A DNA stretch of 32,788 bases from Candidatus Methylomirabilota bacterium (GTDB lineage: Bacteria > Methylomirabilota > Methylomirabilia > Methylomirabilales > CSP1-5). The DNA is taken from positions 1 through 32,788 of the forward strand of contig VRUN01000014.1 of assembly GCA_019456075.1 (NCBI GenBank), read 5' to 3'. Shown here one piece after another: positions 30,969 through 32,788 of the stretch. The number at the start of each line of letters is the position of its first letter. Within the stretch, counting starts at the first letter, position 1. The translations under genes were made by a program, and so were the position numbers. A model generated the notes under the pieces. It had not been told where the DNA came from and searched no databases. It saw only the letters and a list, made by a program, of their open reading frames with translations.

Positions 30969-31097
30969 GCGATTCGTGAGAAGGAAGGTCCGGCACCAAA
31001 ACGGGACGGACCATAACACAACCCAAACATGGCGGCAAGGAGGGTCTCGTTCCAGAACCATGCCGCGCGGACCGACGACCATTAGTCGATGACCCAG

Positions 31098-31183
31098 TTC
31101 ATGGTTCATAGTTCATGGTTCATAGCAAGAACCCAGATTCCCATTCTTAAACCATCAACCATGACCCCTAAACCGTGAACCGC
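31098..31183. repeat. Degenerate heptanucleotide-period dyad array, site 4 (doxX/mnhA gap)
   Basis: ttcatgg|ttcatag|ttcatgg|ttcatag, spacer, aaaccat|caaccat|gacccct|aaaccgt|gaaccgc. Confidence 0.82.
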
Positions 31184-31300: not shown

Positions 31301-31741
31301 CTACAGTCGACGCCTCGAGCCGTCCAGGGCGAGTGGGCCACCCCCGGTGATGAGAATGGCGATCGAGGCCATGAGGAGGACAAGGGCGTATTCATATCCG
31401 GCCACGGCCGCCTTTCCCGCAGCCGCATCCACGACCATGCCATGCAGGAAAAATCCTTCGCGAAGATGCACGAAGAAGATTGCACCCCCCATGATCACGA
31501 CGTGGACCAGGGCGCCAATACGGGTGAAGAACCCGAGCACGAGCGAGGCCCCCCCCAAAAAGTGACCCAGGATCACAAACCAGGCCATGATCGCCGGCAG
31601 CGGAATGCCCATCTTGGCATTGAAGGCGGTGACTCCGGCTGGGGTATAGACGAAGACGGCCAAGTAGCCATGCAACAAAAAAATAATTCCAAGGGTGACT
31701 CGTAACACCGTGATGCCGTAGCCGCTTCCCCGCCTCATCAT
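31301..31741 (-). CDS. DoxX-family membrane protein
   Basis: Four-TM DoxX pattern (GITVLRVTLGIIFLLHGYLAVF...AWFVILGHFLGGASLVLGFFTRIGALVHVVIMGGAIFFVHLREGFF). Confidence 0.88.
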   Translation of the reverse strand: MMRRGSGYGITVLRVTLGIIFLLHGYLAVFVYTPAGVTAFNAKMGIPLPAIMAWFVILGHFLGGASLVLGFFTRIGALVHVVIMGGAIFFVHLREGFFLHGMVVDAAAGKAAVAGYEYALVLLMASIAILITGGGPLALDGSRRRL

Positions 31742-31908: not shown

Positions 31909-32151
31909 GCACAGGCTTTAGAGTGGGCCGAGGATGCCTCTGCCGGCCTCGGGTAGGGTCATGTCGGTAGCAACGTGGTAGCAGTGCCATGGAAAGACTT
32001 GATTTGCTGGGACTGGCCGGTCGGGATCTGATTACCAATTAGCGGGTCCACCCGACCTACAACCCGCAACCTTCGGCGAAGATTTGTAGTTGTAATCTTC
32101 CCATGGGGTCGGAGGCCTGGACGCGACAACCACGGGGAATGGATCAGGCTC

Positions 32152-32180
32152 TTGACACCACCCGCGGATTGGGCGATGCT
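32152..32180 (+). promoter_or_regulatory. Promoter-like element TTGACA-N17-GATGCT
   Basis: TTGACAccacccgcggattgggcGATGCT; resembles 32756-32784; strong -35, weak -10. Confidence 0.35.
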
Positions 32181-32205
32181 TTAGCCCTCCGCAGGAGGTT
32201 CACAG

Positions 32206-32322
32206 ATGGAACCGGTGGTAGGCATAGCCCCACAGCCCACCTCCGGCACAATCGACGGCGCACCAAGCATTCAGACGCCCTCTCAGGCGGAGCATGGCCC
32301 GGGAGGGCGTTTTGCTTTTTAG
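32206..32322 (+). CDS. Candidate 38-codon small ORF with strong Shine-Dalgarno
   Basis: AGGAGG at 32193-32198, ATG at 32206; MEPVVGIAPQPTSGTIDGAPSIQTPSQAEHGPGGRFAF*. Absent from the supplied ORF track (short). Confidence 0.35.
   Translation: MEPVVGIAPQPTSGTIDGAPSIQTPSQAEHGPGGRFAF
32275..32320 (+). terminator. Strong intrinsic terminator
   Basis: acgccctctc (32275-32284) / gggagggcgt (32301-32310), 10 bp with one G-U, then ttttgcttttt. Confidence 0.85.
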
Positions 32323-32386: not shown

Positions 32387-32638
32387 GTGAGGAAACCATT
32401 GAAAATTATTTTAATGCTGTTGCTGGGCGTATCGTTGGGTTTGGCCGCTTGTACCTCAGAGCCATCATTAATCCGGGCGGCAAAGGAGGGCGACACCGAG
32501 ACGGTGAAAACCTTGCTGGCTGCCGGGGCGGACGTGAATGCGCAAAACTGGGTGGGCCAGACAGCCTTGATGCAAGCGGCATGGCATGGCCACACCGCCA
32601 TCGTCCAAATACTTAAAGAGGCCGGAGCGCGGGAATAG
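32387..32638 (+). CDS. Small ankyrin-repeat lipoprotein
   Basis: GTG start at 32387: VRKPLKIILMLLLGVSLGLAAC (lipobox LAAC) then ankyrin repeats SLIRAAKEGDTETVKTLLAAGADVNAQNWVGQTALMQAAWHGHTAIVQILKEAGA. Confidence 0.78.
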   Translation: MRKPLKIILMLLLGVSLGLAACTSEPSLIRAAKEGDTETVKTLLAAGADVNAQNWVGQTALMQAAWHGHTAIVQILKEAGARE

Positions 32639-32755
32639 CCGACTGATCGACTGCCATGTGCTGCCCCCGCGACGGGCTGCTTGATAATGGCTTCCACGAC
32701 ATGACCGGGAAGATCATCTGGAGCGCACCGTAGGAGGCGCTGACGCCCCTAGTTC

Positions 32756-32784
32756 TTGACACCCCTTGCCCAGTTGGCGATACT
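32756..32784 (+). promoter_or_regulatory. Putative sigma70 promoter at right edge (TTGACA-N17-GATACT)
   Basis: TTGACAccccttgcccagttggcGATACT pointing out of the window. Confidence 0.55.
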
Positions 32785-32788
32785 TAAG

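Follow-up and report, generated by a model that had tools for sequence, protein, structure and literature searches.

A dispersed family of terminator-bearing 5′ leaders in NC10 bacteria, a likely transcription attenuator placed before many unrelated genes

Near its 3′ end, the stretch of DNA analysed here (the window, 32,788 nt) carries one copy of a dispersed leader family, which is rather likely to act as a repeated transcription attenuator whose termination is conditional. The family is real, undescribed as far as the tools used here reach, and unusual in its copy number. The features of the window on which the following analysis draws are:

31301..31741, minus strand: DoxX gene (DoxX E 4e-18)
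32152..32157, plus strand: -35 hexamer TTGACA of the leader promoter, read from the sequence, its position conserved across copies
32175..32180, plus strand: -10 hexamer GATGCT after a 17-nt spacer, GATACT in many copies
32187..32320, plus strand: predicted leader RNA, one copy of the dispersed family (putative start; match to model R1)
32193..32198, plus strand: Shine-Dalgarno-like AGGAGG, read from the sequence
32206..32273, plus strand: middle module, conserved in sequence and weakly structured (ATGGAACCGG...GCCCACCTCCGGCACAATCGACGGCGCACCA...), from alignments of 30 and 93-100 copies
32206..32322, plus strand: open frame of 38 codons, MEPVVGIAPQPTSG..., in this copy only, the long frame being unconserved
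32274..32320, plus strand: intrinsic terminator with a ~15-bp stem, the loop GGAGCATG and a U tract, from folding and alignment
32387..32638, plus strand: downstream gene for an 83-aa lipoprotein-like protein with ankyrin repeats (Pfam Ank E 3.3e-12)
32756..32784 (region 32753-32788), plus strand: second promoter, TTGACA-N17-GATACT followed by TAAG (TTGACACCCCTTGCCCAGTTGGCGATACTTAAG), 10/12 matches in the promoter scan

The leader promoter is of the sigma-70 type (TTGACA-N17-GATGCT), and in most class 1 copies its -10 hexamer ends 13-15 nt before position 1 of the family model. Of 117 copies, 51 have a promoter-like site in the preceding 112 nt, compared with 2.3 in shuffled controls, whereas only 4 of 59 gaps between terminator and gene contain one. 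Transcription probably begins near 32187, about 7 nt past the -10 hexamer, and model R1 matches the window at 32195-32319 with 133.6 bits. The initial annotation had proposed a start at 32104 served by TGTAAT at 32091; that start is unsupported and that hexamer is not the conserved promoter, which lies at 32152-32180 and points to ~32187. The spacer of the second promoter resembles those of other family promoters, and the contig end cuts the element there; another leader copy probably begins at this point, as part of a leader array that continues beyond the contig.

A multi-branched, rod-like fold had been drawn over 32104-32320, ending in its own terminator. All the strings quoted for it lie at their given positions and pair as written, and the strong terminator is present at 32274-32320 (GACGCCCTCTCAGGCGGAGCATGGCCCGGGAGGGCGTTTTGCTTTTT), with a mean z of -5.0 for the terminator region over 92 copies. 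However, among seven copies sharing the upstream DNA, the five proposed helices retain no more than 54-80% of their base pairs, and many cells are broken. The whole interval folds somewhat better than shuffled sequence (z -1.5; 16 of 200 shuffles equal it), but this gain comes solely from the terminator: with the terminator left out, 32104-32265 has a z of +0.44, and 129 of 200 shuffles are as good. The minus strand of this interval folds equally well. The proposed arms 32108-32115, 32147-32150, 32157-32162 and 32164-32174 all lie 5′ of the likely start, so that with transcription beginning near 32187 the 5′ arms of all long helices would fall outside the RNA. The terminator of the earlier drawing is thus real and the rest of its fold is not above chance. 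A relationship with 6S RNA, suggested on the strength of the rod, was rejected: no Rfam match was obtained at gathering thresholds, RF00013 was absent among the matches up to E 5, the rod helices are not kept in the seven homologues, and without the terminator z is +0.44. The likeness to 6S RNA lies in the rod-like drawing only, and the arms of that rod fall in the promoter. The covariation check proposed with the drawing gave weak covariation only. The interpretation fared better in part, in that two of the alternatives named, a new class of RNA and a 5′ regulatory RNA acting on the lipoprotein gene, are each close to the family described here, a conserved 5′ leader with an intrinsic terminator.

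The terminator alone is conserved as a structure (mean z -5.0 over copies; 93% of cells paired), and the linker has a mean z of +0.12. The ~65 nt 5′ of the terminator are strongly conserved in sequence and fold near the shuffled level. In our own tree-based covariation test of 93 copies, nothing Watson-Crick rose above the null. A CCGG/GGU hairpin in this core was tried and rejected, for its pairs are kept in 88% but hardly vary, and its z is only -0.47. The only candidate antiterminator, a weak one, could form from GGCG 5′ of the terminator and CGCC of the terminator 5′ arm (4-5 pairs); this pairing is possible in most copies, with a mean pair probability of ~0.3 when the terminator 3′ arm is omitted. 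Because the conserved segment has neither significant covariation nor a stable fold, it points to no aptamer and to no clear antiterminator, which weighs against the attenuator reading as well.

These results bear on a possible though doubtful reading, in which a small molecule, a protein or a small RNA would set read-through by binding the conserved segment (together with two 5′ hairpins in one subclass) and translation of a mini-frame would play no part; it shares position and output with the attenuator reading and differs in the input. It would account for the ~65 nt conserved beyond the needs of a terminator, for the subclass hairpins GCGACCCTTCGGGTTGTCGC and GGGGAGCGGAAAGCTCCCC placed ahead of the same module, and for a regulon resembling that of a global signal. 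However, Rfam searches of the window and 20 other loci, riboswitch models included, gave zero matches, the core folds no better than shuffles, no conserved aptamer fold with covariation was found in the core, and the extra hairpins, whose covariation is not above controls, are absent from most class 1 copies. The literature search found no paper linking Methylomirabilis with riboswitches. Of the features of an attenuator leader, the family does have a promoter upstream, a same-strand gene downstream and an intrinsic terminator between leader and gene.

Two subclasses depart from the usual layout. The first (L037 2811-2876, L040 6741-6826, L133 1449-1530 and others) has two extra hairpins between promoter and module, namely GCGACCCTTCGGGTTGTCGC and GGGGAGC-GGAAA-GCTCCCC, plus a AGGTAGTAG motif, and this two-hairpin region is a candidate structured domain of its own. 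The other, a third subclass (L028, L129, L130, L144 and L147), carries GGCTCCCCGCAGCCATT...ATGAAACCGGGGCGATCAAT, and in several of its copies an ATG frame is open through the terminator.

Signals for translation initiation are a recurrent property of the conserved segment. In 73 of 93 copies the aligned start position is occupied by ATG, GTG or TTG, and 57 of these 73 have a Shine-Dalgarno-like sequence ahead of it. Codon 5 is a stop in 64 of 84 copies, with TAG, TGA and TAA all used, and the usual frame is M-(E/K/D)-P-G-stop, of 4 codons. Outside the genus, where many other bases differ, ~12 of 22 copies have, by our own reading, M-x-x-x-stop, often MVPG-stop. About one third of the copies are without the 4-codon frame, the window's included, in which a 1-base insertion lengthens the mini-frame to 38 codons. 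That this longer frame (32206-32322) is a conserved gene for a 38-aa protein is very improbable: it has a good ribosome-binding site and is open in the window, but other copies carry frameshifts and stops and the frame is not kept past codon 4, and a conserved peptide from 32206 was rejected on this comparison.

A DNA search found 8 similar places in the window's own genome, and six congeneric genomes had 4-16 apiece, the span common to the copies running from ~32206 to the U tract. With model R1, built from 30 copies and counted at E up to 0.001, the genomes G000 to G006 gave 18, 22, 9, 84, 7, 23 and 86 matches; every one of the genus's seven genomes (NC10 / CSP1-5 group) thus holds the family, at 7-86 copies each, in draft assemblies that are broken at repeats. 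Under the stricter filters of a class-wide search, model R2 placed it in 19 of the 95 genomes searched from the class: every genome of family f1, nine from f6, two from f3 and one from f5. Outside the genus it is sparse in related families of the order, and the R2 search of the 95 genomes did not find it in the large-genome family f7. The organisms bearing it belong to NC10 / Methylomirabilota, with named records including bacterium CSP1-5, SPGG6, MAG-BB-18 and nzgw238; CSP1-5 is a putative aerobic methylotroph (PMC6094997). Viral contigs, phages and plasmids were searched and gave zero matches, on which a phage or plasmid origin was rejected.

The position of about 120 copies relative to genes, called with our own codon-bias gene caller, is far from random. 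The nearest downstream gene is on the strand of the RNA for 97 of 106 copies (p 9e-20) and the upstream gene for 71 of 107; copies flanked by codirectional genes share their direction in 58 cases and oppose it in two (p 3e-15), and 29 copies lie in divergent gaps versus 4 in convergent ones (p 1e-5), although these p-values, down to 9e-20, overstate independence because the copies are related to each other. The gap between RNA and gene has quartiles of 72, 166 and 603 nt, the larger values reflecting in part small genes that were missed. Strand bias, an upstream promoter and the scarcity of promoters in the gap therefore indicate a 5′ leader with a terminator at its 3′ end.

The same evidence weighs on the unlikely reading that the copies are stand-alone trans-acting small RNAs of ~130 nt, with the downstream genes served mainly by other promoters. 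On the one hand, the copies have their own promoter and a strong terminator, their conserved unpaired segment includes the C-rich CCACCUCC, which could form base pairs with ribosome-binding sites, and UpsM of Rhodobacter is a leader that also yields a trans-acting small RNA (PMC5089854). On the other hand, the orientation to the next gene is strict with divergent or codirectional gaps preferred, few promoters lie between terminator and gene, and the copies travel with orthologous genes. Orientation also largely excludes an array of integron-like cassette boundaries (attC), which we regard as hardly credible: single genes do lie between copies in same-strand arrays (e.g., 6 copies in 6.7 kb at L041), but 29 copies have a same-strand gene downstream and an opposite-strand gene upstream, copies are spread throughout the genome with the best assembly, and the element has a promoter upstream and a 3′ part ending in a U tract.

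The copy number raises the question whether the element is mobile or selfish, a MITE- or REP-like repeat whose promoter and terminator are incidental. Such a repeat would fit with the high copy number (up to 86 per genome), the occurrence of copies in small arrays and at the ends of contigs, an ortholog locus in G004 that differs at the element and one copy preceding a transposase gene, and in one scheme of ncRNA discovery multicopy motifs, often near transposases, are filed as mobile or repeat candidates (PMC11109978). However, the orientation is far from random (58:2 and 29:4), a single transposase came to notice among the 65 proteins encoded downstream, and copies are retained vertically with orthologs across families, so this reading is quite unlikely; even if the spread had a mobile-repeat origin, orientation and orthology argue for a present function of the copies. 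The transposase gene in question, seen with its leader copy at L034 1119-1385, is IS200-like Y1 (Pfam E 2.4e-9) and was the sole such neighbour noticed.

The proteins encoded downstream of the copies are very diverse, including PAS/sigma-54 regulators, response regulators, PilZ proteins, AhpC/TSA redoxins, cupins, metallo-beta-lactamase-fold proteins, a GDSL lipase, a trypsin-like protease, and TPR and ankyrin lipoproteins; PPDK, cytochromes, a Crp-like regulator and others were added by our own reading of the sequences. Leader and orthologous gene stay paired across genomes, and one PAS/sigma-54 regulator (69% identity) keeps its leader across families f1 and f6. The lipoprotein gene of the window likewise has an ortholog in another genome of the genus, G004, where the terminator is kept and the conserved segment and promoter are absent; because only the terminator is kept there, a regulatory role for this particular gene is less certain than for the family.

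Promoter, conserved segment, terminator, orientation, repetition and conservation with orthologous genes are established from the sequence, and on them a mechanism for the attenuator can be proposed. RNA polymerase would start near 32187 and transcribe the ~65-nt conserved segment with its ribosome-binding site and, in most copies, the 4-codon frame, before reaching the strong intrinsic terminator 65-70 nt 5′ of the downstream start codon. By default most transcripts would stop there and yield a ~130-nt RNA; no other element approaches the terminator in stability, so termination should be the default state. Some condition acting on the conserved segment would then let the polymerase read through and the gene be expressed. 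Ribosomes on the mini-frame M-x-P-G-stop may take part in this conditional termination, and since initiation signals are kept across families, mini-frame translation is our best guess for the input; a factor binding the conserved segment would be the main alternative. As one leader type stands upstream of dozens of unrelated genes, a large regulon could answer to a single signal. A bolder proposal, speculative and rather improbable, is that NC10 bacteria have a genome-wide regulon run by one ~110-nt attenuator, and not by a protein, which reads the global translational state via the 4-codon frame (M-x-P-G-stop).

Several known systems resemble parts of this picture. The c-di-GMP (GEMM) and other multi-copy riboswitches also place one leader class before many genes, PilZ and sensory regulators among them, whereas the NC10 family has no Rfam match or covarying aptamer. 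Up to ~86 copies per genome is high compared with riboswitch copy numbers. A further comparison is with leader-peptide attenuators and termination in 5′ UTRs controlled by uORFs (e.g., leaders of E. coli, PMC7815308), which share a promoter, a ribosome-binding site with a short frame, and a terminator before the gene. In the classical cases, however, each leader controls a single operon and its peptide is linked to the operon's product, whereas in NC10 leaders that closely resemble each other and carry a 4-codon frame stand before dozens of unrelated genes. In the 5′ leader of the dcw genes of Rhodobacter sphaeroides, a Rho-independent terminator within a long 5′ UTR yields the small RNA UpsM, and read-through reaches the downstream genes (PMC5089854). 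The likeness is one of layout, namely a terminator-bearing 5′ leader whose gene is reached by read-through, as we infer for NC10; UpsM is a single locus in Rhodobacteraceae, whereas the NC10 family is multicopy and belongs to another phylum. The leader would thus work like known attenuators, and its reuse across many unrelated genes would be what is new.

Attenuators are usually tuned to single operons, and to our knowledge gene regulation is not yet well studied in this phylum, which is known for methane and methanol oxidation. If the attenuator reading is true, a module that one genome employs up to ~86 times would amount to an RNA-based global regulator, and it would explain many otherwise odd intergenic regions with a promoter and a terminator in NC10 genomes. 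The family, absent from Rfam, is easily found with the model.

Other repeats lie near the leader in the window. A second dispersed repeat of ~100 bp at 31945-32048 has copies of 76-89% identity at ~10 places in the window's own genome, G003 and G006, with none found in the genus's remaining four genomes; two of its copies are near leader copies (L130 and L143), in reverse orientation. A separate short repeat at 32058-32103 (the GCAACCTTCGGCGAAGATTTGTAGTTGTAATCTTCCC region) is 83-95% identical in several genomes and sometimes stands immediately 5′ of leader copies. Short imperfect repeats of the ATGGTTCATAG / AACCATG type occupy 31090-31180, in the gap beside the DoxX gene.
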